A stretch of DNA of 64,000 nt, from NCBI RefSeq assembly GCF_014874095.1, contig NZ_JADBEB010000001.1, positions 6,510,001-6,574,000 of the forward strand, written 5' to 3'. Below the pieces are notes generated by a model. That model had not been told where the DNA came from. It saw only the letters and a program-made list of their open reading frames with translations, and did not search any database. This document shows, in pieces, positions 29,589 to 46,648 of the stretch. The DNA comes from Plantactinospora soyae (GTDB lineage Bacteria > Actinomycetota > Actinomycetes > Mycobacteriales > Micromonosporaceae). A program made the translations under genes and the position numbers. Within the stretch, counting starts at the first letter, position 1; each line of letters opens with the position of its first letter.

Positions 29589-30194
29589 GTGATCCGCATT
29601 GTGATCGTGGAGGAGATGGGTTTGTTACGGGGGGCCCTGCGCGCGGTGCTGTCGAGTGAGGACGACCTGGACGTGGTGGCCGACCTTCACGAGTCCGGCG
29701 AACTCGTGGCGGTCGCCCGGGCGCGGCGACCCGATGTCGTCGTCGTCGACCTGGAACTACCGGGCGTCGACATGCTCGCCGTGGTCGCCCAGCTTGCCGA
29801 GGTGGCACCCCGTAGTGCGGTACTGGCGCTGAGCACGCAGCTCACGCCGGAGGCCCTGCAACGGGCCATCAGAGCCGGGGCGCGGGGATTCGTGGACAAG
29901 AACCTGCCGCCGGCGGAACTGGCCCGGCTCGTCCGCGCGGTGGCGGTCGGGGAGCGGGTGTTCGACCCGACGGCCGCCGTCGCCGCGCTCAACCCGCCGG
30001 ACAGTCCGTTGACCGGCCGTGAACTGGAGGTGTTGCGGATCGTCGCCGAGGGCCTTCCGCTGAAGGAGATCGCCCGGCGGCTCTTCCTGGCGCACGGCAC
30101 CGTGCGGAACCACCTGTCGGTGATCATGCGCAAGACCGGAACGCGTAACCGGTTGGAGGCGGTGCGGCAGGCCCAACGTGCCGGTTGGCTCTGA
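29589..30194 (+). CDS. LuxR-family response regulator
   Basis: GTG 29589 gives 201 residues. The receiver domain has an acidic pair read as EE (IVIVEEMGLL), a phospho-acceptor Asp in VVVVDLELPG, the switch Ser/Thr in LALSTQ and the lysine in GFVDKNLP. The C-terminal LuxR domain reads LTGRELEVLRIVAEGLPLKE and LAHGTVRNHLSVIMRKTGTR. No histidine kinase gene is adjacent. The size matches RamR-type orphan regulators, and a SapB-like cluster lies about 8 kb downstream; a regulatory link is inference only. Confidence 0.88.
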   Translation: MIRIVIVEEMGLLRGALRAVLSSEDDLDVVADLHESGELVAVARARRPDVVVVDLELPGVDMLAVVAQLAEVAPRSAVLALSTQLTPEALQRAIRAGARGFVDKNLPPAELARLVRAVAVGERVFDPTAAVAALNPPDSPLTGRELEVLRIVAEGLPLKEIARRLFLAHGTVRNHLSVIMRKTGTRNRLEAVRQAQRAGWL

Positions 30195-30416: not shown

Positions 30417-31016
30417 GTGATTCGGACGCTGCTCGCTCTGAACGGCGCTCTCATCCGTGGCGCTCTGGCCTTCGTGCTGACCACTCAGGAGGACATCGAG
30501 GTCGTGGCGGAGGTCGAACGGGCCGAGGACATCGGTACGGCGTTGCGGACGCAGCGGCCCGACGTGGCCGTTGCCGACGCCAAGCTCTTCGGGGCCGGCG
30601 TGCTCTCCGCCGGGGACGCGCCCTCGGGCCCGCCCCCGGTGCTCGTGCTGGTGGACCCGCGTCGTCCGAAGGCGCTCGGTGACGCGTTGCGGGCCCGGTG
30701 CCAGCGGCTCGGCTTTCTGGGCAGCGACGTCGCACCGGAGCGGGTGGTCGAGGCCGTACGCCGGCTCGCCCACGGCGGCTCCGTAGTGGACGCCGACCTG
30801 GTGGTCGCGGCGCTCAACCGCGACAACCCGTTGACCGTACGGGAGGTGGATGTGCTGGAGATCGCCGCCGAGGGATGGCCGGTGGTGGACATCGCCAGCA
30901 AGCTCTCGCTGTCGCCCGGAACCGTGCGGAACCACCTCTGCCGGATCGCGGGCAAGACCGGTGCCCGGACCCGGATCGAGGCGGTCCGGATCGCCCGCGA
31001 GCGCGGCTGGATCTGA
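30417..31016 (+). CDS. LuxR-family regulator with degenerate receiver
   Basis: GTG 30417, preceded by CAGGGGGGAA, gives 199 residues. The C-terminal helix-turn-helix is normal (LTVREVDVLEIAAEGWPVVD, LSPGTVRNHLCRIAGKTGAR). The receiver lost key residues: the acidic pair is replaced (TLLALNGALI) and the region of the conserved lysine reads FLGSDVAPE. An Asp remains in VAVADAKLF. It is probably not controlled by phosphorylation, like the atypical regulators known from streptomycete development. It resembles its upstream neighbour and may be a diverged duplicate. Confidence 0.85.
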   Translation: MIRTLLALNGALIRGALAFVLTTQEDIEVVAEVERAEDIGTALRTQRPDVAVADAKLFGAGVLSAGDAPSGPPPVLVLVDPRRPKALGDALRARCQRLGFLGSDVAPERVVEAVRRLAHGGSVVDADLVVAALNRDNPLTVREVDVLEIAAEGWPVVDIASKLSLSPGTVRNHLCRIAGKTGARTRIEAVRIARERGWI

Positions 31017-31161: not shown

Positions 31162-31794
31162 ATGCCATCGGTAACCCGGCGTCGTGCCCCGAACCCTGAT
31201 CATCGCGCCTCGGTCGAGGCCCAGGTGCTGGCCGCGACCGAGCGGCTCCTGGTCGAGGGGGCGAGTTTCACCGACCTCGGGGTGCAGCGGATCGCCGCCG
31301 AGGCCGGCGTGGCCCGGTCGACCTTCTACACCCACTTCAAGGACAAGTCCGAACTGCTCATCCGGCTGGCCGGCACGATGCGGACGGCGGGCTTCGACAT
31401 CGCGAGCGCCTGGGAGCCGGTCACCGGGCCCGGTGCCCTGACGGAGGCCTTCGGACAGGTCGTCGGGATCTACCGGCAGTACGCCGCCGTGCTCGCGGCG
31501 GTCAACGAGGTCGCCGCCTACGACGCCGCCGTACGGGAATTCTGGCGGAACGGGCTCAACCGGTTCATCGAGAACACGGCCCGGGTACTGACCGCCGAGC
31601 AGCGCTCCGGTCGCGCTCCGGCCGACGTGAACGTCGTACATGCCAGTCGGGTGATCGTGATCGGCGGCGATGTCGCCATCGCGGACCACGTCGCGACGTT
31701 TCCCGACGACACCAGCGGCGACGCGGCGTTCGCCCGTGAACTGGCGGCGATCTGGTGGCACGGGGTGTACCGGCGGGACCTTCCGACCGGTTGA
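31162..31794 (+). CDS. TetR-family transcriptional regulator
   Basis: ATG 31162 gives 210 residues. The N-terminal helix-turn-helix covers LAATERLLVEGASFTDLGVQ and RIAAEAGVARSTFYTHFKDK; the rest is an unassigned ligand-binding domain. Its target and ligand are unknown. It is transcribed toward the convergent carbamoyltransferase gene and has no close partner on its own strand. No clear palindromic operator was seen just upstream. Confidence 0.88.
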   Translation: MPSVTRRRAPNPDHRASVEAQVLAATERLLVEGASFTDLGVQRIAAEAGVARSTFYTHFKDKSELLIRLAGTMRTAGFDIASAWEPVTGPGALTEAFGQVVGIYRQYAAVLAAVNEVAAYDAAVREFWRNGLNRFIENTARVLTAEQRSGRAPADVNVVHASRVIVIGGDVAIADHVATFPDDTSGDAAFARELAAIWWHGVYRRDLPTG

Positions 31795-31834
31795 CCGCGC
31801 GGGCGCTGCCAGCTCACCGGCGAACGCCGGGGGT

Positions 31835-33316
31835 TCAGAGCACGGGCACACCCGTCCGGGCACTGAACCGGGCGGCGTCGTCCCGGTCGTTGACCAGTGG
31901 CTCACCCTTGAGGTTGAGGCTGGTGTTGAGCAGCATCGGACAGCCGGTACGCCGTTCGTACTCCCGGAGCAGGTCGTACAGGCCCGGGTGCTGGGCGCGG
32001 GTCACCGTCTGGACCCGACTCGTTTCGTCCACGTGCACGATGCCGGGGAACGAACGGGGATCCCGGCACCGGGCGGTGAACTGCATGTAGGGCGACGCGC
32101 CGACCGGCATGTCGAAGTACCGGGCAGCGACCTCCTGGCGGACCACCGGAGCGAACGGCCGGAACGGTTCCCGCCCCTTCACCCGGTTGACCCGGTCCCG
32201 GCTGTCCGGGCCGCGCGGGTCGGCCAGCAGCGACCGGTTGCCCAGCGCGCGGGGACCGAACTCGGCCCGTCCCCGGGCCACCCCGACCACCCTGCCGGCC
32301 GCCAGCGCCTCGGCCAGGCCCGCGACCGGGTAGTCACCCCGGATTCGGGTGCCCAGGTACGGCCCGGTCCAGTTGAGCTGACGACCGAGTACGGCCGCGG
32401 CCGCCCCGAGGCTCGACCCGGCGTCCCCGGGGTTCGGCAGCAGGGTGATCCGGTCGAAGCCGCTGCGCCGGGCGAGCAGCTCGTTGGCGACACAGTTCAG
32501 GCCCAGCCCGCCCATCACGGTCAGGGTCGAGGTGTCGCCGACCCGGGTGCGCAGCCAGCGCGCCGCCGCGAGCAGCACCTCCTCCGTCACCACCTGGATG
32601 CTGGCCGCCAGGTCGGCGAGGTCGGCGTGGGGCTGCCAGTCGCCGATGCCCCGATGGACGTTGCGGCGGAGCCGGAAGGTGGGCGGGGTGAACTCGATCA
32701 GTTCGCTCCTGATCTGGTCGACGTACCGGGGGCGGCCGAGTGCGGCCAGCCCCATCAGGATGTACTCCTCCTCGTTGGGGGTGAAGCCGCACCGCCGGGT
32801 GAACGCGCTGTAGAGCAGCCCGAGACTGTGCGGATAGCGGCAGCGGTCGAAGACCCGGTAGCGGCCGTCCCGGAACTCGCCGAGCGTCAACGTCTCGAAC
32901 TCGCCGATCGCGTCGGCGGTGAGGACGGCGGTGGTCCGCTCGCCGCTGGTGAAGTGGCCGGCTGCGGCGTGCGAGTGGTGGTGGCCGACGTACCGGATCG
33001 GTACGCCCCGCAACTCGGGCAGGTCGAGCCGGGCCAGGTAGCGCCGGGGCAGGTCGTCGATCGCCGTCGCGTGCCGGTACTGCCCGGCCCGGAGGTGCCG
33101 GAGTTTCTTGCGCAGCGGGTGCTCGTACCAGGCGATCAGGTCCGGCCGGCCCCAGGAGAGCGCCTCGGCGAGCAGGCCGCCGCTGAGTTCGGGATCGTTC
33201 TTCCGTCGCGAGTACCGTTCCGCGTGCCCGGCGAAGAGGATCTCGTCACCCCGTACGACGCACGCGGACGCGTCGTGCGACAGCGCGCTGAGTCCGAGAA
33301 CATGCCTGGCCACCAT
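31835..33316 (-). CDS. Carbamoyltransferase (NodU/CmcH family)
   Basis: ATG 33316 gives 493 residues; the frame is open upstream but reads into the divergent GtrA gene. The N terminus MVARHVLGLSALSHDASACV and the conserved GHHHSHAAAGHF (near residue 108), YPHSLGLLYSAFTRRCGFT and MGGLGLNCVAN mark the actin-like YrdC/TsaD-type fold. The C-terminal lobe has FGPRALGNRSLLADPRG, PFAPVVRQEV and MLLNTSLNLKGEPLVN. Such enzymes carbamoylate sugars or antibiotics from carbamoyl phosphate. No acceptor pathway lies beside it; the nearby GtrA protein hints at an envelope sugar. Confidence 0.88.
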   Translation of the reverse strand: MVARHVLGLSALSHDASACVVRGDEILFAGHAERYSRRKNDPELSGGLLAEALSWGRPDLIAWYEHPLRKKLRHLRAGQYRHATAIDDLPRRYLARLDLPELRGVPIRYVGHHHSHAAAGHFTSGERTTAVLTADAIGEFETLTLGEFRDGRYRVFDRCRYPHSLGLLYSAFTRRCGFTPNEEEYILMGLAALGRPRYVDQIRSELIEFTPPTFRLRRNVHRGIGDWQPHADLADLAASIQVVTEEVLLAAARWLRTRVGDTSTLTVMGGLGLNCVANELLARRSGFDRITLLPNPGDAGSSLGAAAAVLGRQLNWTGPYLGTRIRGDYPVAGLAEALAAGRVVGVARGRAEFGPRALGNRSLLADPRGPDSRDRVNRVKGREPFRPFAPVVRQEVAARYFDMPVGASPYMQFTARCRDPRSFPGIVHVDETSRVQTVTRAQHPGLYDLLREYERRTGCPMLLNTSLNLKGEPLVNDRDDAARFSARTGVPVL

Positions 33317-33427
33317 CGAGGACACTCTATCTATTCGCCGTCCGGGCGGGGCAACCGGCGGGCCATTTTCTTCGGCTCCGACCTGCGGAAATGTGCTCTG
33401 TCGCCGCCGTGATCTAGGCTGGCTGGA

Positions 33428-34067: not shown

Positions 34068-35822
34068 TTATCCGCCCAACGGCAACGGTCGGGCCGGCTG
34101 GGCGGTCGCGGGTTCGCCCCGCCAGTGGCCGACCAGTTCCCGGTAGGTCGCCGAGCGGGCGAGCAGCTCCTCGTGCCGGCCCAGCATCGGGCGACCGTCC
34201 GCGAGGATCAGCACCTGCCGGGCGCGCAGTGCCGAACTGATCCGGTGCGCGACCACCACCAGGCAGCCCGGCCGGGCGGCGAAGGCGAGTTCGACGGTCG
34301 CCTCGGCCGTCGGGTCCAGATGACAGGTCGCCTCGTCCAGGATCGCCAGCGGGGCGGGGGAGAGGTAGGCGCGGACCGCCGCGACGAGCTGCCGTTCCCC
34401 GGCGGAGAGCGCGCCCGGCTCCAGCGTCGCGGCAAGACCGCCGAGCCGGTACGCCAACGGGCCCAGGCCCAGTCGCTCCACCGCCGCCGCCACCCGGTGC
34501 TCGTCGGCATCCGGACACAGGTAGCGCAGGTTGTCCAGGAGCGTGCCGGTGAAGACGTACGCCTCCTGCGGGATCAGCACCCGGTGCCCGGCCAGTACGG
34601 CGGGATCGCCGTCGACCGGTACGCCACCGAGCCGGACCGTACCCGCCTGTGGCTGGAGCAGTCCGGCCAGCAGCGCGGCGAGGGTCGACTTCCCGGCCCC
34701 GCTCGGCCCCACCACGGCCAGATGCGTCCCGTCGGACAGGGTGAGGTCGAAGTCGTCGAGGACCGGCCGGGCCTGGGGCCCGTACCGGAAGGTGACCCCA
34801 CGCAACCGGGCGCGCGCCGGGTCCGCCTGGGCCGCCACCGCGCGGGGCGGGGACACACCCCCGGGCGGTGGCGGAAGTGCGGTGGAACTCAGGATCCGGT
34901 CCAGGGTCACCGCGAAGCGCAGGCCGCCACCTGCCACGCCCTGCACCAGCGCGTGCAGCGCAGGTTGCAGCCCGGTGGCGACGTACACCAGGGCGCCGAG
35001 CACGGCACCGGCGGTGAGCCCGCGCCGGACCAGCCACGGGGCGGTCAGCAGCAGTACGGCCAGCGGCAGCCAACCACCGACGGCGAGACTCAGGCTGCGT
35101 AGCGCGGCCATCCTGGCCAGGGCCCGCTCGGCGGCGGCCTGCCGGTCCACCTGCCGGCCCACCTGGTCCGCGACAACCTCCTGCGCGCCGCAGGCCACCA
35201 CGTCCCGGTGTCCGGTCAGCGCGGCGCTGGCCGTCTCGCCCAGCCGTTCGTCGGCCCGTACGTAGCTCCGCTGCCGGTCGACCATTGCCGGCAGCGCGGC
35301 GGCGAACAGGATCAGCCCGGCGGCCAGCGGCACCGCGACCACGCCGGCCACGACCGGGGTCAGGGAGAAGAGTCCGAGCAGCGCCGCCCCGGCGGTGAAC
35401 AGGAATCCCCGGACGACCATGACGAGGCCGGCGAAGGTGTCCCGGATGATCTCCACCTGGTGGGTCAGCCGGGCCACGGCGGCCGTGTCCGGCCGGGCCC
35501 CGGCGGCCGTCGAGCGGTGCAGTGCCCCGCTCACGACCCGGTCCGCCAACTCGTCGCGGAAGGGCTCGACGACGTCGCCGAGCCGGGCGTACGCCCGACC
35601 GGTGCCGATCGCACCGATCACGACCGCGCCGGCCAGCCCGCCGAGCCAGGCCAGCCCGACCTCTGGCCGGCCGGCCAGGAAACCGTCGTCCAGGGCGCGG
35701 GCGGTCAGTTGACCGGCGAGCAGCGCCGGCAGCGCCTCGGCGGCGGACCATCCGGCGAGCCGGCCGAGTGGGCGGGCCCGGCGGCGCAGTGCGGCAGCGG
35801 TGAACCGGACGACGGCCTTCAC
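34068..35822 (-). CDS. Lanthipeptide-type ABC exporter, second half-transporter (RamB-like)
   Basis: GTG 35822 overlaps the upstream ABC gene's stop as GTGA and gives 584 residues. A six-helix transmembrane domain (about residues 1-310) is fused to an ATPase: Walker A VGPSGAGKSTL, signature LSAGERQLVAAVRAYL, Walker B LAILDEATCHLD with the catalytic Glu, and the H-loop VVVAHRISS. Paired with the previous gene it forms a heterodimeric exporter. In the ram locus the two ABC genes follow ramC and ramS, as here, and are proposed to export SapB. Confidence 0.9.
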   Translation of the reverse strand: MKAVVRFTAAALRRRARPLGRLAGWSAAEALPALLAGQLTARALDDGFLAGRPEVGLAWLGGLAGAVVIGAIGTGRAYARLGDVVEPFRDELADRVVSGALHRSTAAGARPDTAAVARLTHQVEIIRDTFAGLVMVVRGFLFTAGAALLGLFSLTPVVAGVVAVPLAAGLILFAAALPAMVDRQRSYVRADERLGETASAALTGHRDVVACGAQEVVADQVGRQVDRQAAAERALARMAALRSLSLAVGGWLPLAVLLLTAPWLVRRGLTAGAVLGALVYVATGLQPALHALVQGVAGGGLRFAVTLDRILSSTALPPPPGGVSPPRAVAAQADPARARLRGVTFRYGPQARPVLDDFDLTLSDGTHLAVVGPSGAGKSTLAALLAGLLQPQAGTVRLGGVPVDGDPAVLAGHRVLIPQEAYVFTGTLLDNLRYLCPDADEHRVAAAVERLGLGPLAYRLGGLAATLEPGALSAGERQLVAAVRAYLSPAPLAILDEATCHLDPTAEATVELAFAARPGCLVVVAHRISSALRARQVLILADGRPMLGRHEELLARSATYRELVGHWRGEPATAQPARPLPLGG

Positions 35823-37609
35823 CGTACCGCCTCGACCGGGTCGCCGGCCGGCGCGTACCCGGGCACCGCCGACGGCTGGAAGACGGCCCGGTAGTCCGGG
35901 TCCCGCCACAGGTCCCGGTGCCGCCCCACGCCGCGCAACCGGCCGCCGTCCAACCACGCGACCAGGTCGGCGTCGGCGGCGGTGGCCACCCGGTGGGTCA
36001 CGATCATTCGGGTACGCCGGTCCGCGTGCGCCGCGATCGCTCCGGCGATCCGGTGTTCGGTGGCGGTGTCCACGCTGGACGTCGCGTCGTCGAGGATGAG
36101 CAGCCGTCCGGCGTGCAGCGCGCGGGCCAGGCCCAGCCGCTGCGTCTCACCGCCGGACATCGGCGCGGCGTCGAGCCGGGTCCGGTATCCGTCCGGCAAC
36201 CGCTCGACGAACTCGTCGATCGCCGCCGCCCGAGCCGCCGTCACGAGTTCGCGCGGAACCGCGACGTCCGGTGGGACTGCGACGTCCGGCGGATCCGCTA
36301 CGTCCGGCGGGACTGCTACCGGCTCGGCGGACCGGCCCAGTGCGATCACCTCTGCGATGGTGTCACCGATCAGAATCGGTCGCTCGAAGCCGTACCCGAC
36401 GGCGTTCCGCAGGGCGGTCCGGCTCAGCCGGCGCAGGGGGACGCCGTCGAGCAGCACCTCGCCCGCGTCCGGGTCGCGGAGCCGGCCGGCGACCGCCGCG
36501 AGGGAGGACTTGCCGGATCCGGACGGGCCGACGACGGCGATCGTGGCGCCGGCGGGTACCCGCAGGTCGACTCCGTCCAAGACCGGCCGCCCGTCGTCGG
36601 CCCGTACGGTCACGCCGCACAGCACCAGCCGGCCGGTACCGGGGGGCAGCGTCGCCCCGCCGTACGTCCGGACCGGTTCGGCGAGCGCGGCGGCGACCCG
36701 TTGCGCACCGGCCCGGGTCCGGACCAGCCGGTTGAGCGTCGCGAGCACGGCGCCGAGACCGGCGCCGAGCGCGGCGTACTGCACGGCGGCGAAGAGCTGC
36801 CCCGGGGTGAGCCGTCCCTCGGTCACCGACCAGCCGCCGACCGCGACGATCGTCAGTTGCAGCATGGGTGCCACGGCGGCGGTCCGGGCCGAGGCGCGGG
36901 CCAGGGTGGTCCAGGTGCGGGTGCCGTGCGTACGCAGCTGGGGCAGCGGGGCCAGGATCCGGCCGATCTCGGCGGCTACGGTACCGGCGGCGGCGATGGT
37001 CCGGGCCCCGTGCAGCGCCTCGGCCAGCCGTCCGGCGATCCGCCCCTGTACGCCGAGGTAGTCCGAGGCGGCGGCGGAGGCGTCGGTCACGAAGGCGCGC
37101 ATCAGGACGGCGAGCAGCAGCAGCCCGACGCCGAAGGTGACGGCGAGGCGCCAGTCGAGCAGCAGGAGGGCGAGCACACTACCCACCGAGGGGAGTACGG
37201 CGGTCAGCCCGAGTACGACGGTGGCGCCGGCCTGACCCGCGTCGGCGGCCTGCCCGACCAGCCGTCCGATCAGGTCGCCCACCGGACGCCGGGCGGCGTG
37301 CCGCGGGTCGAGGGCGAGCAGGTGCCGCAGCAGTTGGTGCCGGAGCCGGGCGGTGGTCCGGGCGGTGCCGGTCCCGCTGGCCAGGGTGGCCAGGGTGTCG
37401 GTGGCGACGATCACCACCACGAGTCCGCAGGCGGCCACCGGCCACCAGGGGTCGGCGCCGCCGAGGGCCGCGTCCACGGAGAGTCCGAGCGCGGCCGGAA
37501 GGAGCAGTTCGGCGACCGCGCCGAGCAGCGCGGCGGCCCCGAGGACGATGGTCCAGCCGCCGCCGTAGGTGATCGCCTGTCGGAGTAGCCGGTCGCCGTC
37601 GGCGGGCAC
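35819..37609 (-). CDS. Lanthipeptide-type ABC exporter, first half-transporter (RamA-like)
   Basis: AGGAGGG lies eight bases before GTG 37609, giving 596 residues; GTG 37630 is a weaker option. Transmembrane domain and ATPase are fused: Walker A VGPSGSGKSSL, signature MSGGETQRLGLARAL, H-loop MIVTHRVAT. The Walker B region reads LLILDDATSSVD, with Asp in place of the catalytic Glu, so this half probably forms the degenerate site of an asymmetric pair. Three PPDVA-containing hexapeptides encoded by an 18-bp repeat are inserted before the signature helix. It lies 80 bp after the precursor peptide gene. Confidence 0.9.
   Translation of the reverse strand: MPADGDRLLRQAITYGGGWTIVLGAAALLGAVAELLLPAALGLSVDAALGGADPWWPVAACGLVVVIVATDTLATLASGTGTARTTARLRHQLLRHLLALDPRHAARRPVGDLIGRLVGQAADAGQAGATVVLGLTAVLPSVGSVLALLLLDWRLAVTFGVGLLLLAVLMRAFVTDASAAASDYLGVQGRIAGRLAEALHGARTIAAAGTVAAEIGRILAPLPQLRTHGTRTWTTLARASARTAAVAPMLQLTIVAVGGWSVTEGRLTPGQLFAAVQYAALGAGLGAVLATLNRLVRTRAGAQRVAAALAEPVRTYGGATLPPGTGRLVLCGVTVRADDGRPVLDGVDLRVPAGATIAVVGPSGSGKSSLAAVAGRLRDPDAGEVLLDGVPLRRLSRTALRNAVGYGFERPILIGDTIAEVIALGRSAEPVAVPPDVADPPDVAVPPDVAVPRELVTAARAAAIDEFVERLPDGYRTRLDAAPMSGGETQRLGLARALHAGRLLILDDATSSVDTATEHRIAGAIAAHADRRTRMIVTHRVATAADADLVAWLDGGRLRGVGRHRDLWRDPDYRAVFQPSAVPGYAPAGDPVEAVR
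36261..36314. repeat. 18-bp tandem repeat, three copies, inside the first exporter gene
   Basis: Units start at 36261, 36279 and 36297, of the form GCGACGTCCGGCGGGACT with a few base changes. On the coding (minus) strand they encode repeated (V/D)PPDVA in the helical subdomain of the ATPase. Likely a slippage expansion tolerated in a surface loop. Confidence 0.85.
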
Positions 37610-37688
37610 GGGCACCACCCTCCTGATCACACGGGGTTGCCCTGGGTGAGGACGTCTGCCCACCCAGGGCCCCGGATTACTGACCTGA

Positions 37689-37814
37689 TCAGTTACAGGT
37701 CGTCACGGACAGCGAGCTGTCGCCGCAGAGCAGCAGGCTCGCCCGGCTGCCACCGCCGCCACCACCACCGGTGCGGTCGGCCAGCTCCATCCCCTGAAGG
37801 TCGAGAAGCGCCAT
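37689..37814 (-). CDS. SapB/RamS-like class III lanthipeptide precursor
   Basis: The 41-residue peptide begins MALLDLQGMELADRT, continues with seven glycines, and ends SRASLLLCGDSSLSVTTCN. The leader keeps the LLDLQxME recognition motif of class III lanthipeptides. The core has two S-x2-S-x3-C blocks (Ser23/Ser26/Cys30 and Ser33/Ser36/Cys40), as in SapB; from memory, the published SapB core differs over this stretch only by Ile for Val37. It is preceded by AGGAGGAGGT with a seven-base spacer, lies 15 bp after the synthetase gene and ahead of two ABC exporter genes. The product should be a surface-active morphogen. The polyglycine spacer between leader and core is unusual. Confidence 0.95.
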   Translation of the reverse strand: MALLDLQGMELADRTGGGGGGGSRASLLLCGDSSLSVTTCN

Positions 37815-37821
37815 GTTGTTC

Positions 37822-37831
37822 ACCTCCTCCT
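37822..37831 (-). promoter_or_regulatory. Strong ribosome-binding site of the lanthipeptide precursor
   Basis: On the minus strand AGGAGGAGGT lies seven bases ahead of the precursor ATG and begins within the TAG stop region of the synthetase gene. The extended complementarity to 16S rRNA would give many precursor molecules per transcript compared with the enzyme. Confidence 0.8.
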
Positions 37832-40634
37832 AGTTCTTGGTCCGATAAGCCCCACGCGGCAGCGAGGGGAGCTTTGTCGCGCCGGAGAGCGGCGCGAGGA
37901 AGGGCAGGGTCACCGGCTCGTCGTGCAGGGCCGCACCCGTGGCGAGCAGGACGCCCGCCGTACCGGTGGCCAGGTCCATCGACAGCCGCAGCAGCTGCTC
38001 GCCGGGGAAGGCGAGGAAGCCGCGGTACGGCAGCGCGTGCCAGGCCAGTCGCGACACCTGGACGGCCAGTTCGGCGCGGTCGGCGTCCCGGGACGCCCCG
38101 TCGGGGTCCTCGGCCGGGCCGTCGGAGCCGTCGGTCGCCCGCGCGGCGAGGTACGCGATGATGCCGGCCCGGCCGGCGAAGAGGCCGGACTGCGCGTAGA
38201 AGGGTGCCCGGGCGCCGCGCCGGATCGCCGCCGCCGCCTCGGCGAGTTCGGCGTCCGGCCGGTGCCGGAGATACTGGTCGAGTACGAGTCCGATGCCGAC
38301 ACTGCCGTGTGCCAGGTACGGCATGGTCCGCCAGCCCTCGTTGACCTCCAGCGCCCCGTCCGGCCGCAGTACGCAGCGGCGCAGGTCCTGCCGCAGCGCG
38401 TCGGCGGCCCGGTCGAGCAGCGCGCCGTCGCCGGTCAGCTCGTAGAGCCGGAGGAACATCAGGGCGGGACCGCTGCGGCCACGGGTGAGTCCGGCGTACG
38501 GGTGCGTCCCGCCGCTGATCTCCGACCCGGACCCAAGGGTCGCGGGGCCGCCGTCGCCGTTTCCGGCCGGCGTCCGGTCGCCGGCCAGCCGGTCGGCGAC
38601 CAGCTCCGCGGCCCGCCAGGCGGCCTGCCGCAGGGTTGGTTCGCCGGTCCGGCCGGCCAGCTCGGCGAGGTTGAGCGCGATCCCGGGCAGCCCACTGACC
38701 AGGTCCTCGCCGAGATCCTCCCAGGGTTCGCGGAGGCAGATGTCGAGTACGTCGAGGGCGTCGGACCGGCGGCCGAGGCAGTCCAGCGCGAAGGCGACGC
38801 CGTGCAGTCCGTCGTAGAAGCCGCAGCGGGTTCCGGACGGCGGGTCGAGGGCCCGCTTCACCAGCCAGTCCTCGTGGTCCGGGAACCGGCCCGCCCCGGT
38901 GGCGTGCAGCGCGTGGAGTACCCCCGCGGCGCCGTACCCGAGGTTGAGCCCGCCGGTGCGGAACTGGTCGATGTCGCCGGGGAACAACCGGTCGTCCCGC
39001 TCCGGCGTGGCGGTGCGGAGGATCGCGCCGGCGAGCTGGTTCCGCAGCCGTGGCCAGGCCGACCGGCCGGCGGCGAAGTCGGCCGTGCCCGCGATCGGGT
39101 CCGCCGTGCCGCTGCGCCGGGTGCCGGCACTGGCGACCCGTCGGGTCCCGGTGCTCACGGCAACGGCGGCAGCGGGTCCGGTAGCGCCGGACTCGGCACG
39201 GTCGGCGGTGGCACCGCCGGCCAGGGCGTCGCCACGGATCTCGGCGACGGCGGGCAGGAGGAAGTCGCGCGGCACCGGGAAGTGCGCGGCGATGACGTCG
39301 GCGAGGTGGGCCGCCTTGGCCGGGGCCAGCCGGACCATCTGGGTCAGCGGCAGGAACAGGGCCAGGCGCAGGCAGGCCAGGGCGTACCGGTCCACGGCGA
39401 GGCCGGTCCGGTCGCGCGGCGCGGCGAACGCCTGGTTGCGGAGCGCGGGTCGGCTCGCGTCGGCGACCGGGGCGGCCACCTCGAAGTCGACCAGGGTGAC
39501 CCGGTCGTCGGGGCCGACCATCACGTTGAACAGGTGCAGGTCGCCGTAGACGATGCCACGGTCGGCGATCGCGCCGATGATCTGCTCCACCTGCTCGTGG
39601 ATCCGCATCGCCCAGGCGGTGTACCCGGACAGCTCGGCGGGGGTGGCGTCGGCGTCGATCAGCGGGTACCGCTCGACCAGCACCTTGTTGAGCGCCTGGC
39701 CCTCGATGAACTCCAGGGCGAGGAAGTGGTGGTCGCCGAGGACGAACTGGTCGTGGACCTGGGCCACCTGCGGCACGTCGGCGAGCTGGCGCAGCACCTC
39801 GGCCTCGCGGGTCAGCCGGGTGATCGCGTCGGCGCCGGTGGCGTCCAGACCGGCGTGCGGGCGGGCCTCCTTGAGCACGACCTGGGTGTCGGTACGGGTG
39901 TCCCGGCCGACGTAGAGTCCGCCGCCGTTGGAGAAGTGGATCACCCGTTCGATCCGGTACGGCAGGTCGGTGGTGGTGGTGGCGTTGCGGGCGTCGAGAT
40001 GCGGGCGGAGGAACTCGGGCAGGGCCACCCAGTCCGGTACGTGGAAGATCGGGTCGCGCCGGTCCGGTACCAGGGTGCCGTTGTCGTCCTCGACGGCCGG
40101 CACCACCTGGCCGTCACCGCTGACGCAGTAGCGGGCCGCGAAGCCGCCGTAGCGGACGTAGACCGGGCCGGCGCCGTACCGCAGGTCGCTCAGGATGTAC
40201 GGTCCCGCCTCGCCCTCCAGCCGGTCCGAGAGTTCCTTGCAGGCGAGCTCGAGTTCGGCCTCGTCCCGGGGGTAGATGGTGACGAACTTGCCGCTGGAAC
40301 CCCGGCGGGCGTACTTCGAGTTGCGCATCAGCAGCATCCGGGGGCCGCGGAGGAACTTGAAGGAGATCCCTCGCGGTATGCAGTAGTCCCACACCGTTCC
40401 CAGGACCCGCTCCGCGTTGTCCAGACAGGCCGAAATGTGGATCTTCCAGCCCTGCTGCGGGAGCTTGCCGTCCTCGGGGCCGTAGATCAGCCAGTCGTCG
40501 TTCGGTTCGCGTTCCCAGCCGGTCGGCAGGGGACGGTCGGCTGCGGTGAACCCGGTGGCGGGGGCGGAGACGTTGGTGAGCGAATCGTAGAACAGCGGAT
40601 CGACTGCGCAGTACGCGTCGTAGCGTTCGTCCAT
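37830..40634 (-). CDS. Class III lanthipeptide synthetase (LanKC, RamC-like)
   Basis: The 934-residue enzyme has three parts. Residues 1-225 form the phosphoserine lyase-like N-terminal domain (YCIPRGISFKFLRGPRMLLM, SSGKFVTIYPRD). Residues about 230-500 form a Ser/Thr kinase: VVLKEARPHAG for the ATP lysine, IVYGDLHLFNVMV for the catalytic loop and DFE for the metal motif. Residues 520-934 form a LanC-like cyclase with GLHGVAFALDCLG, SGLPGIALNLAEL, YAGLTRGRSGPALMFL and LAHGSVGIGLVLDQY. The zinc-binding Cys-Cys-His set of LanC is missing, as in RamC. GAGGAG lies eight bases before ATG 40634. It phosphorylates, eliminates and cyclises the adjacent SapB-like precursor. Confidence 0.95.
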   Translation of the reverse strand: MDERYDAYCAVDPLFYDSLTNVSAPATGFTAADRPLPTGWEREPNDDWLIYGPEDGKLPQQGWKIHISACLDNAERVLGTVWDYCIPRGISFKFLRGPRMLLMRNSKYARRGSSGKFVTIYPRDEAELELACKELSDRLEGEAGPYILSDLRYGAGPVYVRYGGFAARYCVSGDGQVVPAVEDDNGTLVPDRRDPIFHVPDWVALPEFLRPHLDARNATTTTDLPYRIERVIHFSNGGGLYVGRDTRTDTQVVLKEARPHAGLDATGADAITRLTREAEVLRQLADVPQVAQVHDQFVLGDHHFLALEFIEGQALNKVLVERYPLIDADATPAELSGYTAWAMRIHEQVEQIIGAIADRGIVYGDLHLFNVMVGPDDRVTLVDFEVAAPVADASRPALRNQAFAAPRDRTGLAVDRYALACLRLALFLPLTQMVRLAPAKAAHLADVIAAHFPVPRDFLLPAVAEIRGDALAGGATADRAESGATGPAAAVAVSTGTRRVASAGTRRSGTADPIAGTADFAAGRSAWPRLRNQLAGAILRTATPERDDRLFPGDIDQFRTGGLNLGYGAAGVLHALHATGAGRFPDHEDWLVKRALDPPSGTRCGFYDGLHGVAFALDCLGRRSDALDVLDICLREPWEDLGEDLVSGLPGIALNLAELAGRTGEPTLRQAAWRAAELVADRLAGDRTPAGNGDGGPATLGSGSEISGGTHPYAGLTRGRSGPALMFLRLYELTGDGALLDRAADALRQDLRRCVLRPDGALEVNEGWRTMPYLAHGSVGIGLVLDQYLRHRPDAELAEAAAAIRRGARAPFYAQSGLFAGRAGIIAYLAARATDGSDGPAEDPDGASRDADRAELAVQVSRLAWHALPYRGFLAFPGEQLLRLSMDLATGTAGVLLATGAALHDEPVTLPFLAPLSGATKLPSLPRGAYRTKN

Positions 40635-40759
40635 CGTCGCGGCTCCTCGGGTGTCCCTGAGCGACCGTGCCTCATCGATGCATCCGAGTCTCCTTTCAGA
40701 TCCGAGGTGTTACTAGTGTGTTAAGTCATCCCCTACGGTGCGTCGCGCACGGGTACTTA

Positions 40760-40771
40760 TGACAAATGTCA
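40760..40771. promoter_or_regulatory. Palindrome TGACA-AA-TGTCA
   Basis: The five-base arms are perfect. It lies 126 bp upstream of the lanKC start on the minus strand side of the divergent region. A second TGTCATGACA palindrome sits at 41063. Either could be an operator; there is no independent support. Confidence 0.3.
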
Positions 40772-41124: not shown

Positions 41125-42522
41125 ATGTCAGTTCGACGCACGCGCACGGGAGGCGCGCTCGCCGCGGTGGCCACGCTGGTGCTGGCCGCCACCGCCTGCG
41201 GGGACTCCGCGGAGCCGGCGGGCCGGGACGCCAAGGACATCACCCTGACCATCAGCGACAACGCGATCGCCGGTGGCAAGAACTCCCGCAGTGCCGACTG
41301 GATTCAGAACTGGGTGATCCCGAAGTTCGTCGAGGCACAGAAGGCCAAGGGCGTCACCGCGAAGGTGACCTTCGTGCCCAGTGGGGTCGACGACGAGCAG
41401 TACAAGACCAAGCTCGCCCTGGACCTGCGGGCCAGGTCCGGCAGCGACGTGATCTCCATCGACGGCATCTGGGTGGGCGAGTTCGCCCAGGCCGGCTACC
41501 TGAAGCCACTGTCCGAGGTGGCCGGTGCCGAAACCGACGGCTGGGCGGGCTGGGCCCAGATCCCGGAGACGGTGCAGGGGCTGGGCAGCTTCGAGGAGAA
41601 GCGGTACGCCATCCCGATCGGCACCGACGGCCGGCTGCTGTACTACAACAAGAAGCTCTTCGCCCAGGCCGGCCTGCCCGCCGACTGGCAACCGCGCAGT
41701 TGGCAGGAGATCCTCGACGCGGGCGCGAAGCTCAAGACACTGTCCGGCGTCACGCCGATCCAGATCAACGCCGGTACGGCGATGGGTGAGGCGACCAGCA
41801 TGCAGGGCGCGCTTCCCCTGCTGGCCGGGGCCGGCGGCGAGGTCTTCGCCAACGGCAAGTGGACCGGCGCCAGCCAGCCGACCCGGGACATGCTCGACTT
41901 CTACGCCAGGGTCTACGGCGGCGGGCTCGGCGACCCGCTGTTGCAACAGGAGGCGAAGGGGCGGGACAAGTCGTTCCAGCGGTTCGCCGAAGGCAAGATC
42001 GGCATCCTCGGCGAGGGTGACTACTTCTGGCGCAGCGTGATCGAGCCGAAGGCCGGGATCGCCAAGATGGCCGACCGGGACAGCGCGGTCGGGTACGCGC
42101 TGATTCCGGCCAGGACACCGGGCGCGGGCATCCGGGGCCAGGACTTCGTCAGCATGTCCGGCGGCAGCGTACGGACGCTGAACCCGAACTCCAAGTTCCC
42201 GCATCAGGCGTTCGAGCTGCTCAGCTTCATGCACTCGGCCGAGGCGGTGAAGGCCGAGTTGGGTGACGTACCCCGGCTCACCGCCCGGACCGACGTCAAC
42301 ACCGAGATGCTGGCCGGCGATCCGATGCTCCGGTTCGTGGCCGAGAAGATCCTGCCGATCACTGCCGCCCGGCCACCGCTGGCGGTCTATCCGCAGGTGT
42401 CGGTGGCGCTTCAGGAGGCCACCGCGGCGGTGGTCGGGGGCACGGCGCCGGACGCCGCGGCTGCCGCGTACCAGAAGAAGTTGGAGGGTCTGGTCGGTGG
42501 CGCGGACAACGTCACCTCCTGA
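41125..42522 (+). CDS. Sugar ABC transporter substrate-binding lipoprotein
   Basis: The 465-residue family 1 extracellular solute-binding protein has a signal peptide ending in a lipobox AATAC near residue 25. Conserved parts are SGSDVISIDGIWVGEFAQAG, RYAIPIGTDGRLLYYNKKLF and KFPHQAFELLSFMHSAEA. GAAGGGAAG lies eight bases upstream of the ATG. It is the first gene of an operon with two permeases and an ATPase. The downstream GH38 alpha-mannosidase and sugar enzymes suggest mannosides or manno-oligosaccharides as ligand. Confidence 0.9.
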   Translation: MSVRRTRTGGALAAVATLVLAATACGDSAEPAGRDAKDITLTISDNAIAGGKNSRSADWIQNWVIPKFVEAQKAKGVTAKVTFVPSGVDDEQYKTKLALDLRARSGSDVISIDGIWVGEFAQAGYLKPLSEVAGAETDGWAGWAQIPETVQGLGSFEEKRYAIPIGTDGRLLYYNKKLFAQAGLPADWQPRSWQEILDAGAKLKTLSGVTPIQINAGTAMGEATSMQGALPLLAGAGGEVFANGKWTGASQPTRDMLDFYARVYGGGLGDPLLQQEAKGRDKSFQRFAEGKIGILGEGDYFWRSVIEPKAGIAKMADRDSAVGYALIPARTPGAGIRGQDFVSMSGGSVRTLNPNSKFPHQAFELLSFMHSAEAVKAELGDVPRLTARTDVNTEMLAGDPMLRFVAEKILPITAARPPLAVYPQVSVALQEATAAVVGGTAPDAAAAAYQKKLEGLVGGADNVTS

Positions 42523-43471
42523 TCGGAGCACGGCGGCGGCGGACGAACTGCCGGCGCGCCCGGCGGACCCGGGCGCGCCGCTGGGCCGCCGGTCCGACGC
42601 CGCCGGTCTCGGCCGGGCCCGGGCGGGCGGGTTCGTCCTGCCCAGCCTGGTGCTCATCGTGCTGTTCCTGGTCGTACCGGCGGTGTGGACCCTCTACCTC
42701 GGGGTGACCAACTACCGGTTGACCGGGCTTGCCGCGGCCGATCCGCAGGTGGTCGGGTTGGACAACTACGTCGCCGCGCTCGGCGACGAGCGGTTCCACA
42801 CCTCGCTCTGGCTGACCCTCCAGTTCGTGCTCGGTTCGGCGGTGCTCGGCCAGGCCGGGCTGGGTTTCGCCATCGCCTGGTCGCTGCGGGACCGGCGCGG
42901 GCCGGTACGCCGGGTGGTGGAGGCCCTGGTGCTGCTGGCCTGGATCCTGCCCAGCTCGGTGGTCGCGTTCCTCTGGATCGCGCTGCTCGACCGCGACGCC
43001 GGCACCCTCAACGCGCTGCTCGGGCTGCCCGGGACGGCCTGGCTCCTCGATCATCCGATGCTCTCGGTCATCCTGTTCAACACCTGGCGGGGTACGGCGT
43101 TCTCGATGATGCTCTACGCCGCCGCACTGCAGAACGTGCCGCCGTCGCACCTGGAGACCGCCCGGCTGGCGGGGGCGTCCACCTGGCAGCAGCTCCGCGA
43201 TGTCGTCTTTCCGCGCATCCGGGGCCACATCCTGACCAACCTGCTGCTGATCAGCCTCTGGACGTTCAACGACTTCACCCCGTTCCTGATCACGGCGGGT
43301 GGCCCGGAGCAGCGCTCCGAGATCCTTCCGGTGTACGTCTACAAGATCGCCCTCTCCGGCGGTGAGCTCGGCTTCGGCGCCGCGATCTCGTTCCTGATGC
43401 TGTTGATCAACTTGGTCATCGCCCTGGTCTACCTGCGCACCCTCGGCGAGCGGCGGAAGGCCCGGCGATGA
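42497..43471 (+). CDS. Sugar ABC transporter permease (MalF-like)
   Basis: GTG 42497 is chosen because GGAGGG lies eight bases upstream; this gives 324 residues and a 26-base overlap with the binding-protein gene. The protein has about six membrane helices and the EAA coupling motif near the end of the permease domain (LETARLAGASTWQQLRDVVF). The first 50 residues are proline/arginine-rich and cytoplasmic. It pairs with the next permease. Confidence 0.88.
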   Translation: MARTTSPPDRSTAAADELPARPADPGAPLGRRSDAAGLGRARAGGFVLPSLVLIVLFLVVPAVWTLYLGVTNYRLTGLAAADPQVVGLDNYVAALGDERFHTSLWLTLQFVLGSAVLGQAGLGFAIAWSLRDRRGPVRRVVEALVLLAWILPSSVVAFLWIALLDRDAGTLNALLGLPGTAWLLDHPMLSVILFNTWRGTAFSMMLYAAALQNVPPSHLETARLAGASTWQQLRDVVFPRIRGHILTNLLLISLWTFNDFTPFLITAGGPEQRSEILPVYVYKIALSGGELGFGAAISFLMLLINLVIALVYLRTLGERRKARR

Positions 43472-44325
43472 CGGGTCCGGCGGCGGAGGGAGCGACCATG
43501 ACGGGCAGCTGGCGGGGTGCGCTGGCCCTGATCGGCCGCTACACCTTCGTCTCCGTGGTGCTCGGCTTCTTCGCCCTGCCGCTGCTCTGGCTGGCCACCG
43601 CACCGTTCGACCGGACACCGACGATCACCACCTCGCTGCCCGAGTTCACCCTGGACAACTTCCGGGCCCTGCTGGACAACCCGTACGCGGTCCGGTCCCT
43701 GTGGAACTCGATCGTGCTGGCCGGCGGTACGGCAATCCTGGTGGTGACGTTCGCGGCGCTGGCCGCGTACGCGCTGAGCCGGGTCCGGATACCGGGCCGG
43801 GACGCACTCCTGTACGGCCTGCTGCTGCTCTCCTCGATCGTCACCGGTACGGCGACCATGGTGCCGCTGTTCGAGCTGGCGTTCCGGCTGAACCTGATCG
43901 ACTCCCAGTTGGGCGTGATCCTGATCCTCAGCGGCGGGCTGCTGCCGGCGGCCATCTTCATCCTGAAGGACTTCATGGACTCGACCCCGACGTCGTACGA
44001 GGAGTCGGCCCGGGTCTTCGGGGCGAGCCCGTTGCAGATCGTCCGGCACATCGTGCTGCCGGTGGTCCGACCCGGCCTGGCCACGGTGGCGGTCTGGGCG
44101 GTGGCCGGCGTCTGGGGCAACTTCCTGGTGCCGTTCCTGCTGCTGCGTAGCCCGGACAAGGCTCCGGCAGCGGTGATCATGTACACCCTCTACACCGAGG
44201 GGGGCCAGGCGAATCTCGCGCTGCTCTCCACCTTCTCGCTGCTCTACTCGCTGCCGGTCGTGCTCATGTTCGTCTTCGTGAGCAGTCGGTACGGCTTCCG
44301 GTTCCACGGAGGGATCAAGCGCTGA
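43468..44325 (+). CDS. Sugar ABC transporter permease (MalG-like)
   Basis: ATG 43468 overlaps the previous stop (ATGA) and gives 285 residues. An in-frame ATG at 43498 has GGAGGG seven bases upstream and could equally be the start; the ten extra residues carry no motif. Six helices are present, with the EAA motif EESARVFGASPLQIVRHIVL. The C terminus SRYGFRFHGGIKR is typical of MalG-type permeases. Confidence 0.9.
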   Translation: MTGPAAEGATMTGSWRGALALIGRYTFVSVVLGFFALPLLWLATAPFDRTPTITTSLPEFTLDNFRALLDNPYAVRSLWNSIVLAGGTAILVVTFAALAAYALSRVRIPGRDALLYGLLLLSSIVTGTATMVPLFELAFRLNLIDSQLGVILILSGGLLPAAIFILKDFMDSTPTSYEESARVFGASPLQIVRHIVLPVVRPGLATVAVWAVAGVWGNFLVPFLLLRSPDKAPAAVIMYTLYTEGGQANLALLSTFSLLYSLPVVLMFVFVSSRYGFRFHGGIKR

Positions 44326-45446
44326 TGTCCGCGATCACCCTGAGTCGACTGACCAAGGTCTACCCGGGCGGCGTCCGGGCCCTGGACGCGCTGGACCTGT
44401 CCATCTCCGACGGCGAGTTCTTCGCGTTGCTCGGGCCGTCCGGCTGTGGCAAGACCACGTTGCTGCGGACGATCGCCGGCCTGGAGGTGGCCACTGGCGG
44501 GACCGTCGAGATCGGCGGGCGGAACGTCACCAACCTCCAACCGGGCGTCCGCGACGTGGCCATGGTCTTCCAGGACTACGCCCTGTTCCCGCACATGACG
44601 GTCCAGGACAACATCGCCTACCCGCTGCGGATCAAGAAGGTGGGCCGGGCCGCCCGGCAGGACAAGGCCGCCGAGACCGCCGCCGAACTGGGCCTGTCCG
44701 CACTGCTCGACCGGCGTCCCGCCCAGCTCTCCGGCGGTCAGCAGCAGCGGGTCGCGCTGGCCCGGGCGATGGCCTGCCATCCGCAGGTGTTCCTGCTCGA
44801 CGAGCCGTTGTCCAACCTGGACGCCCGGCTCCGGCTGGAGGCCCGGACCTTTCTCAAGCGGTTGCAGCGGGAACTCGGGGTCACCTGCGTCTTCGTCACC
44901 CACGACCAGGCCGAGGCGCTGGCCTTGGCCGACCGGATCGCGGTGATGGACGGCGGCCGGATCCGTCAGGTCGGCACCCCGGTCGAGGTGTTCCGGCGGC
45001 CGGCGAACACCTTCGTGGCCGGGTTCATCGGCTCCACCCCGATGAACCTGCTCGACGCCGAGGTGACCGGCGACGGGATCACCGTCGCCGGGGTCCGGCT
45101 CGCCGTGCCCGAGGCGGCCCGTGGCCTGGTCGCCGACGGCGACCAGGTCGTCTACGGAGTACGCCCGGAGTACCTCGACCTGCACGCCGAGGCGGTGGAC
45201 GGCGCCCTGGCCGGCCAGGTCGTAGTGGTGGAGAACCTGGGCAGCAGCTCGCTGGTCTCGCTGGACCTTCCCGGTGCCGACGGATCGGCCGGCGTCAGCT
45301 GTCAGGTCGTGGTGCCGGAGGGCCGGGAACCGTCGCTCGGGGCCACCGGCTGGGTGCTGCCCCGGGAGGGACGTTCGCTGCTCTACCGGGACGGGGAACT
45401 CCTCGGTGCGCCCCGACCGGCTCCGGTGGCCGGGGTGCCGGCGTGA
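44325..45446 (+). CDS. Sugar ABC transporter ATPase (UgpC/MsmK-like)
   Basis: The 373-residue ATPase has Walker A GPSGCGKTTLLRTIAGL, Q-loop MVFQDYALFPHMTVQDN, signature LSGGQQQRVALARAM, Walker B VFLLDEPLSNLDARLR and H-loop VFVTHDQAEAL. A TOBE regulatory domain follows from about residue 240. Its one-base overlap with the permease and GTGA overlap with the PHP gene show that it belongs to this operon; many actinobacterial sugar operons lack their own ATPase, so its presence suggests a self-contained transporter. Confidence 0.92.
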   Translation: MSAITLSRLTKVYPGGVRALDALDLSISDGEFFALLGPSGCGKTTLLRTIAGLEVATGGTVEIGGRNVTNLQPGVRDVAMVFQDYALFPHMTVQDNIAYPLRIKKVGRAARQDKAAETAAELGLSALLDRRPAQLSGGQQQRVALARAMACHPQVFLLDEPLSNLDARLRLEARTFLKRLQRELGVTCVFVTHDQAEALALADRIAVMDGGRIRQVGTPVEVFRRPANTFVAGFIGSTPMNLLDAEVTGDGITVAGVRLAVPEAARGLVADGDQVVYGVRPEYLDLHAEAVDGALAGQVVVVENLGSSSLVSLDLPGADGSAGVSCQVVVPEGREPSLGATGWVLPREGRSLLYRDGELLGAPRPAPVAGVPA

Positions 45447-46648
45447 GCGCCCGGCGTACGGTGCACCGAGGGCGGTGGACCCTCGACGACCGGGCGGCCG
45501 AGGTGCTCCGGTCGGTGCCGGTGGAGGTCCCGGCCGGTACGGCTGCCCTGACGGTACGGCTGGACTATCCGCGTACCGCCGGAGTCCTGGATCTCGGCTG
45601 CCAGGGAGCGGCGGGCTTCCGGGGCTGGTCGGGCGGCGCCCGGGACGGCTACACCGTGGCCGTGGACTGGGCGACCCCCGGCTACCTGCCCGGCGCCCTG
45701 GAGCCTGGGCAGTGGCAGGTGCTGCTGCGGCTGCACCGGATCCCGCCGGAGGGCCTGGCGTACGAGCTGACCGTGACGACCGATCCGGATCGCCCGGCGC
45801 CACCCGAGGTCCCCGCCGTGCCGCCCGTCCCCGATCGCCCGGCCGGCCGGTCACTTCCGACCGTCGACGGGCTGCGCTGGCTCGCCGGCGACCTGCACGC
45901 GCACACCGTGCACAGCGACGGGACCAGCACCGTTCCCGAACTCGCCGCGCTGGCCGCCGGCCGGGGACTGGACTTCCTGGCGGTCACCGACCACAACACG
46001 GTGAGCCACCATCCGGAACTACCTCCGGCCGGCGCCCGATACGGCATCACGCTGCTGCCCGGCCAGGAGGTGACCACGGACCGGGGTCACGCCAACGTCT
46101 TCGGGCCGGTGGGCTGGATCGACTTCCGGGAGCCGCCGGACGAGTGGGTGGTCGCGGCGGAGCGGGGCGGCGGGGCGATCTCCATCAACCATCCGCTCGG
46201 CGCCGACTGCGCGTGGCGGCATCCGCTGCAGAACCGGCCCCGGCTGGCCGAGGTCTGGCACTCCGGCTGGTGGGACCGGACCTGGGGTGCGCCGTTGGCC
46301 TGGGCCCAGTCCTGGCGGCCCGATGTCGTACCGGTGGGCGGCAGCGACTTTCACCGTCCCGGGGACGGTCCGGTGATCGGCTCGCCCACCACCTGGCTGC
46401 TGGCCGAGCCCGACGACCTGCTCGGCGGGGTGCGGGCCGGTCGTACCGCCGTGTCGGCCGGGCCGGACGCACCGCTGCTGCTGCGGGTCGGCGACGAGTT
46501 TCTCGCGCTGGACGCCGACGGCACCGTCCTGGTACGCCCCGACGGCGGTCGCCGGGTGGTGCACGGTGACCGGGTGCTGCTGCCCGGGGCCGACGGGTTG
46601 CACCTGCTCGAGTCGTACCGGACGGAGGTGGTCGCGCTGTGCGCGTGA
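45443..46648 (+). CDS. PHP-domain metal-dependent hydrolase (CehA/McbA-like)
   Basis: The 401-residue protein has an N-terminal beta-rich domain (about residues 1-140) and a PHP phosphoesterase domain starting WLAGDLHAHTVHSDGTSTVP near residue 150. Further metal ligands are in VTDHNTVSHH, ISINHPLG and VGGSDFHRPG. PHP proteins cleave phosphate esters using two or three metal ions; CehA/McbA members act in related hydrolyses. In this operon a sugar phosphate or phosphodiester is a reasonable substrate. GTG start overlaps the ATPase stop as GTGA. Confidence 0.83.
   Translation: MSARRTVHRGRWTLDDRAAEVLRSVPVEVPAGTAALTVRLDYPRTAGVLDLGCQGAAGFRGWSGGARDGYTVAVDWATPGYLPGALEPGQWQVLLRLHRIPPEGLAYELTVTTDPDRPAPPEVPAVPPVPDRPAGRSLPTVDGLRWLAGDLHAHTVHSDGTSTVPELAALAAGRGLDFLAVTDHNTVSHHPELPPAGARYGITLLPGQEVTTDRGHANVFGPVGWIDFREPPDEWVVAAERGGGAISINHPLGADCAWRHPLQNRPRLAEVWHSGWWDRTWGAPLAWAQSWRPDVVPVGGSDFHRPGDGPVIGSPTTWLLAEPDDLLGGVRAGRTAVSAGPDAPLLLRVGDEFLALDADGTVLVRPDGGRRVVHGDRVLLPGADGLHLLESYRTEVVALCA

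Follow-up and report, generated by a model that had tools for sequence, protein, structure and literature searches.

SapB is taught as a surfactant of aerial growth that works beside the chaplins. An operon of the SapB family lies in Plantactinospora soyae, a member of a genus that is described with little or no aerial mycelium in the accessible text of PMC5968735, and this raises the question of where the operon came from, what its product does and how it is controlled. The preliminary description of this DNA had pointed to the same discord between a SapB cluster and scarce aerial growth; the puzzle exists, and it was already in print. An operon of this kind as such is already known, as SapB clusters without aerial hyphae have been published for Micromonospora, where the available part of the report finds them in almost half of the type-strain genomes (PMC5765111), and SapB-precursor matches in Micromonospora and Verrucosispora are listed in the portion of the SapT paper at hand (PMC9011353). 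The window, by which we mean the whole stretch of 64,000 nucleotides that was analyzed, belongs to a genome of 9.7 Mb in one contig. We consider it probable that its SapB/AmfS-type operon is a long resident of Micromonosporaceae, that the product is surface-active, and that transcription is set by two regulators, RR1 and RR2.

A SapB/AmfS-family operon in ram order

The minus strand of the window at 34068–40634 holds a class III lanthipeptide operon of the SapB/AmfS family. Its four genes stand in the order and on the strand given in the preliminary description, which is the ram order, and the SapB family was confirmed by NCBIfam and Pfam scores far beyond chance. The features of the operon are as follows.

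37830–40634, minus strand: lanKC, class III lanthionine synthetase of the RamC/AmfT type, 934 aa (NCBIfam, Pfam)
37689–37814, minus strand: lanA, SapB/AmfS-type precursor of 41 aa with a MALLDLQ leader and a seven-Gly linker, MALLDLQGMELADRTGGGGGGGSRASLLLCGDSSLSVTTCN (NCBIfam, Pfam)
37639–37670, minus strand: G+C-rich hairpin with a stem of 12 bp, in the gap that separates lanA from the exporter genes (RNA fold)
35819–37609, minus strand: ABC half-exporter 1, at the RamA position (Pfam ABC_tran and ABC_membrane)
34068–35822, minus strand: ABC half-exporter 2, at the RamB position (Pfam ABC_tran, reading frame)

LanKC matched the NCBIfam model for class III LanKC (NF038151) over residues 5–898 with 1094 bits against a cut-off of 575, and Pfam RamC_N with 279 bits; Pkinase and LANC_like were also matched, and by these models the lyase, kinase, and cyclase-like domains are all present. 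Solved structures of LanKC relatives exist, for example 9wop, 8sao, and 9ugq, which are titled LanKC, SalKC, or kinase-domain protein. The closest named relatives of LanKC came from Plantactinospora alkalitolerans, on two contig pieces (94% and 89%). The precursor scored 68.9 bits with NCBIfam SapB_AmfS (NF033212; cut-off 25) and 66.6 bits with Pfam RamS, and its start codon, ATG at 37814, is preceded by AGGAGG. Two ABC half-exporters sit behind the precursor, as clusters of the SapB/AmfS family require. The first appears to start at approximately 37609–37618, with a leeway of a few codons, and the second probably starts at GTG 35822, which gives a four-base overlap with the stop of half-exporter 1, and not at GTG 35957. 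The other six Plantactinospora loci also have a predicted hairpin after lanA, with energies between -34.5 and -43.4 kcal/mol for a folded length of 75 nt. Gene order was conserved across the compared loci, and the tested neighbor genes of the cluster included none for a leader protease. Adjoining the cluster, window 41125–51769 carries genes of a sugar-type ABC importer, a PHP-domain gene, and a GH38 alpha-mannosidase gene, and is perhaps a locus for mannoside use.

Conservation of the core peptide

The predicted core lies near the end of lanA and contains two tandem SxxSxxxC-like ring motifs, SRASLLLC and SSLSVTTC.

37692–37748, minus strand: core peptide SRASLLLCGDSSLSVTTCN with a tentative N-terminal end (core comparison, 40 copies from 32 of the 41 loci)

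The comparison comprised the window and 40 loci chosen for matching the SapB/AmfS model. A SapB-type core was present at 32 of these 41 loci, which by the choice of the loci is no unbiased frequency, in 40 copies that were near-invariant with synonymous changes present; 18 of the 40 were identical to the window core over its 19 residues. Different, strongly diverged class III cores were found at the remaining nine loci. The preliminary description had called the core nearly identical to that of SapB; it is near SapB, from which it presumably differs by Val for Ile, but it is not unusual, as the count of 32 loci indicates. Val in place of this Ile is seen among Streptomyces-type loci as well (f21, a label assigned from RamC, RamR, and 7–13 chaplins). 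In the SS pair of the core, the second Ser was encoded by TCG in 32/32 copies from Micromonosporaceae and by AGC in 8/8 copies from six Streptomyces-type loci and two loci of f19, a family taken as Streptosporangiaceae from the LanKC tree; a switch between these two codons takes two base changes. Nei-Gojobori values for the core (nonsynonymous, 0 to 0.19) are no formal test of selection, as the comparison covers 18 codons and switches between TCN and AGY serine codons make the nonsynonymous count too high. The linker consisted of seven to eight Gly in six Plantactinospora loci, was an interrupted run in G078, and was GGG in most Micromonospora copies, and Streptomyces-type loci had a longer leader. 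With four dehydrations, the predicted masses of the peptide are 1853.88, 1910.90, and 1967.92 Da for zero, one, and two extra Gly, respectively.

Distribution, chaplins, and the role of the product

The SapB/AmfS precursor model matched in all seven Plantactinospora genomes examined, in 124 of 300 sampled genomes of the family, and in 51 of 394 of the class. The chaplin domain (PF03777) gave no match in the seven Plantactinospora or the seven Micromonospora genomes, and 7–13 matches in each of the seven Streptomyces-type genomes; overall it was found in 21 of 41 genomes, including weak matches in some other Micromonosporaceae. The Plantactinospora genomes thus lack detected chaplins of the kind that the SapB-chaplin system of aerial growth has in the same genome, and because no chaplin match was obtained, the peptide seems to have been kept without its usual partner.

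The product could instead have another main role, as an antimicrobial, a signal, or a metal binder, with the surfactant reading wrongly carried over from Streptomyces. This would agree with the scarcity of aerial mycelium, with the absence of chaplin matches in Plantactinospora, and with the species-specific activity reported, in the accessible text of PMC13380574, for the relative durhapeptin. However, the core nearly equals the Streptomyces-type cores, in contrast to the other class III cores, found at 9 of the 41 loci and strongly diverged, and we regard such a role as unlikely. For a surfactant-like role at the surface the odds are moderate, because the core is close to SapB, yet neither its customary partner nor its customary growth form is present. 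The preliminary description had offered a conserved role and horizontal acquisition as explanations, and the former is favored. What gives the locus its interest is that nearly the same core is apparently kept by selection, without detected chaplins, in a genus of scarce aerial mycelium; because of this, its surface role is probably an older or a different one.

A pair of RamR-like regulators

The preliminary description had regarded the cluster as complete. The four operon genes are present, but the regulators had been overlooked, and the cluster extends left to 29589, with a GtrA-domain gene, a carbamoyltransferase gene, and a TetR gene between the regulators and the operon.

29589–30194, plus strand: RR1, RamR-like response regulator of the NarL/LuxR type whose receiver pocket is intact (EE, D, S, K) (43% to Streptomyces-type RamR, Pfam, tree)
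30417–31016, plus strand: RR2, RamR-like regulator with a degenerate receiver (Pfam GerE only, tree, receiver residues)
31162–31794, plus strand: TetR-family regulator, located between RR2 and the operon and doubtful as a cluster member (Pfam TetR_N; 4 of 7 Plantactinospora loci)
31835–33316, minus strand: carbamoyltransferase, likewise between RR2 and the operon and likewise doubtful as a member (Pfam Carbam_trans_N and Carbam_trans_C)

RR1 and RR2 are in tandem and both face the operon. The carbamoyltransferase gene was found at six of the seven Plantactinospora loci and at none of the other loci compared, and together with the TetR gene it occupies the interval from the regulator pair to the operon (window 31162–33316), an arrangement seen in Plantactinospora only. 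A plus-strand open reading frame of 580 aa at 31670–33412, initially taken as a marker of synteny, was not retained as a gene: it had no Pfam or NCBIfam match and a poor codon-position profile, and it lies opposite the carbamoyltransferase gene.

RR1 matched Pfam Response_reg with 60.8 bits (cut-off 30.2) and also GerE, while RR2 matched GerE only and gave no match to the Pfam receiver model; Streptomyces-type RamR reached 18.8 bits with the receiver model, under the same cut-off. The pocket residues of Plantactinospora RR1 were E-E, D, S, and K in five of six aligned copies, with Ala for Ser in G058, and the RR1 of G113, read by eye, agreed with the others. The RR2 pocket consisted of L-N or L-D, D, V, and S or N, that is, the acidic pair, the Thr/Ser, and the Lys were lost and the Asp was kept, and the pocket of Streptomyces-type RamR was H-x, D, A, and K in all seven. 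Beyond Plantactinospora the RR1 pocket was mixed, being intact in G008, G010, and G020 and altered in g7, G114, G210, G161, and others. Judged by these residues, RR1 would be phosphorylatable and RR2 a pseudo-receiver. According to the part of a review available to us, the importance of the Asp in RamR lies in dimer formation and not in phosphorylation (PMC12632262); the pair of an intact and a degenerate receiver offers a natural comparison for the route by which RamR came to work free of phosphorylation.

The order lanKC, lanA, exporters, RR2, RR1 was found at 21 of 28 Micromonosporaceae loci (seven Plantactinospora, seven Micromonospora, and seven from other genera; the pair of G113 was counted from coordinates and sequence), comprising all 21 loci in the main SapB group. 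Among the other seven loci, five had one regulator (G129, G011, G021, G075, and G181, the last at a contig end), one had a regulator on each side (G169), and none was found at G030. Streptomyces-type loci had a single regulator in 7/7 cases. Locus L118 of the Micromonosporaceae genome G010 (9427–10946) holds lanKC, lanA, and both regulators, with RR2 about 90 nt after lanA and no ABC exporter detected in 19 kb.

When a Streptomyces-type RamR (L107) was used as the query, the best match in the genome of the window was RR1 (29592–30191, 43%), with RR2 directly behind. A regulator tree was calculated from 95 rows after rows of less than 140 aa had been dropped, by which the RR1 of G278 and of G234, both seen by tblastn, were lost. 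Inside the group formed by the cluster-linked rows (99/96), RR1 (20 rows, 98/91) and RR2 (25 rows, 100/97) were separate clades, and the grouping stayed at 97/92 when eleven rows, mostly those with the longest branches, were removed. RR1, RR2, and RamR are likely to be co-orthologous, as suggested by the tree and synteny. We grade this as likely only, because the reciprocal best hit fails, the best matches of RR1 in seven Streptomyces-type genomes being other NarL-type regulators (up to 47% and 176 bits, versus 44% and 131 bits for RamR), because holding RamR with the paralogue group gave a borderline p-AU of 0.0505, and because the DNA-binding part alone was uninformative, the cluster-linked group being neither recovered nor rejected (alternative p 0.233).

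RR1 and RR2 might also be ordinary NarL-type paralogues that lie near the operon by chance and exert no control. The reverse best hits just mentioned would fit this, as would the up to three genes that separate the pair from the operon in Plantactinospora. On the other hand, the pair stands beside the operon at the 21 loci and directly adjoins it in Micromonospora; 52 of 55 cluster-linked rows, and one row of G549 that lies 4 kb from another SapB-family precursor, grouped apart from 39 genome paralogues; and holding RR1 with the paralogue group was rejected (p-AU 0.007). A chance neighborhood is accordingly quite improbable. The row of G549 comes from a Streptomyces-type genome (G549:C22:305183–309655) in which a second RamR-like regulator lies approximately 4 kb from a second, weak match to a SapB-family precursor.

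A survey by reciprocal hits, in the portion of its text at hand, placed ramR in streptomycetes only (PMC4255298), and the failure of the reciprocal best hit would explain how ramR-like genes were missed there. A limited literature search of titles and abstract openings returned no report on RamR-type regulators of Micromonosporaceae beyond that survey.

Conserved elements upstream of lanKC

Eleven upstream regions were aligned for a footprint, in which a base counted as kept when it was the same in at least 10 of the 11. At positions -140 to -61 relative to lanKC, 35 of 80 columns were kept, versus 5 of 120 at -260 to -141, and the kept bases read TGAC-T-TGTCA, GTGC-N5-GCA, and ATGACT-A-C-CACT-G. 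Two elements were defined.

40715–40750, minus strand: bipartite element GTGC-N5-GCAC ... ATGAC-N5-CACT, also in some Streptomyces-type ram promoters (footprint)
40760–40771, minus strand: inverted repeat TGACATTTGTCA, a candidate operator upstream of lanKC (single exact genome copy)

Of 39 upstream regions, 18 contained the bipartite pattern, which was composed after inspecting the sequences, and 21 had no match; the shuffled controls each gave at most 0.005. The pattern was present in 6/6 Plantactinospora, 5/7 Micromonospora, and 4/7 Streptomyces-type regions and in three others. A relaxed pattern for the inverted repeat was found in 11 of the 39 regions and in 0/7 of the Streptomyces-type ones. 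In the whole genome, TGACATTTGTCA had one exact copy, at the lanKC promoter, and seven more sites with one mismatch versus four for the reversed control pattern. These counts give no indication that the candidate operator serves a wider regulon.

History of the synthetase

The rooted LanKC tree contained 52 rows, the partial rows of G104 and G021 being left out. The window LanKC fell into a Micromonosporaceae group of 26 rows (99/94), all of which except G011 had a SapB-type core, and not among non-SapB families, a placement that the preliminary description had named as speaking against its reading. A Streptomyces-type RamC group comprised 11 rows (100/100), and a third group comprised nine rows (93/100) with cores that we take to be catenulipeptin-like. 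Identical groups were obtained without the outgroup. The union of the Streptomyces and Micromonosporaceae groups had a support of 75/29, and an alternative order of the three was not rejected (p 0.461). The window LanKC lies outside the Streptomyces RamC clade, which is not the position of an orthologous copy from the Streptomyces ram system.

The history of LanKC is not purely vertical. LanKC of Micromonospora was divided between two groups, whereas rpoB formed one, and the LanKC of two Micromonosporaceae genomes, G129 and G075, was in the third group. Among the Micromonospora loci L092–L098, one LanKC group had tandem precursor copies and the other single copies (G161, G210). The two f19 loci, L114 (G520) and L117 (G627), had SapB-type cores, a LanKC inside the Streptomyces-type clade, and Streptomyces-like serine codons; no RamR-like regulator was found in the stretch examined at either locus, and both are likely transfers.

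That the cluster came from Streptomyces and its product serves in the streptomycete role is very improbable, for although the core is only very few residues off the Streptomyces-type cores and the two f19 loci show that such transfers occur, a joint clade of Plantactinospora LanKC and Streptomyces-type RamC was rejected (p-AU 0.0001, log-likelihood 106 lower), the serine codons TCG and AGC are two base changes apart, and the precursor is present in 7/7 genomes of the genus. Because the joint clade was rejected, a recent transfer from Streptomyces, the form in which horizontal acquisition was considered here, is unsupported and largely refuted. Older transfers of the cluster may have occurred, and the operon looks old in Micromonosporaceae.

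Proposed pathway

Class III synthetases carry out dehydrations and ring closure. For the resident operon under RR1 and RR2, we infer the enzymatic product, its export, its surface role, and the regulator that binds each element as follows. LanKC would phosphorylate the Ser/Thr of the core and eliminate the phosphate, giving four dehydrations and two lanthionine (or labionin) rings, and the two half-transporters would export the product. Proteases encoded elsewhere would take off the leader and shorten the glycine linker; the glycine run could be a spacer that is trimmed by exopeptidases. The mature peptide would then be a surface-active molecule on hyphae or spores. RR1, phosphorylatable by sequence, and RR2, as a pseudo-receiver, would set transcription at the conserved elements 80–140 bp upstream of lanKC.

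More speculatively, Micromonosporaceae might possess a two-regulator form of the ram system. Its RamR-type regulators, one competent for phosphorylation and the other a pseudo-receiver, would descend from an ancient duplication and act on different elements of the promoter, and the SapB peptide, having lost both the chaplins as partners and its aerial role, would be made on a kinase signal for substrate hyphae or spores. We offer this tentatively, as a possibility rather than an expectation; if true, Streptomyces, with its one degenerate RamR, would have the derived form, freed from phosphorylation.

Comparison with known systems

The ramCSAB-ramR cluster of Streptomyces coelicolor, which specifies SapB, and the amf cluster of Streptomyces griseus share with the P. 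soyae locus the order of synthetase, precursor, and two half-exporters together with a convergent regulator, and a leader of the form MxLxDLQ is likewise common to them. Plantactinospora differs from Streptomyces ram in having two regulators, one of them with an intact receiver pocket, instead of one, a polyglycine linker instead of the longer leader, an extra inverted repeat in the promoter, and no detected chaplins in contrast to the Streptomyces hosts. No TTA codon occurs in the four operon genes of the window, whereas most Streptomyces amf-like clusters have TTA in ramR or ramC according to the accessible text of PMC4255298. The durhapeptin cluster of Streptomyces durhamensis is also of class III, with LanKC, precursor, transporter, and response regulator, but has a different core, and one regulator is described in the part of the report available (PMC13380574). 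The SapB-type clusters of Micromonospora belong to the same family as the P. soyae locus, have the same gene order, and are reported, in the available part of PMC5765111, from organisms that lack aerial hyphae. The seven Micromonospora (g4) loci examined here also have the tandem regulators, and five of the seven carry two to three precursor copies in tandem, whereas the Plantactinospora loci carry one.
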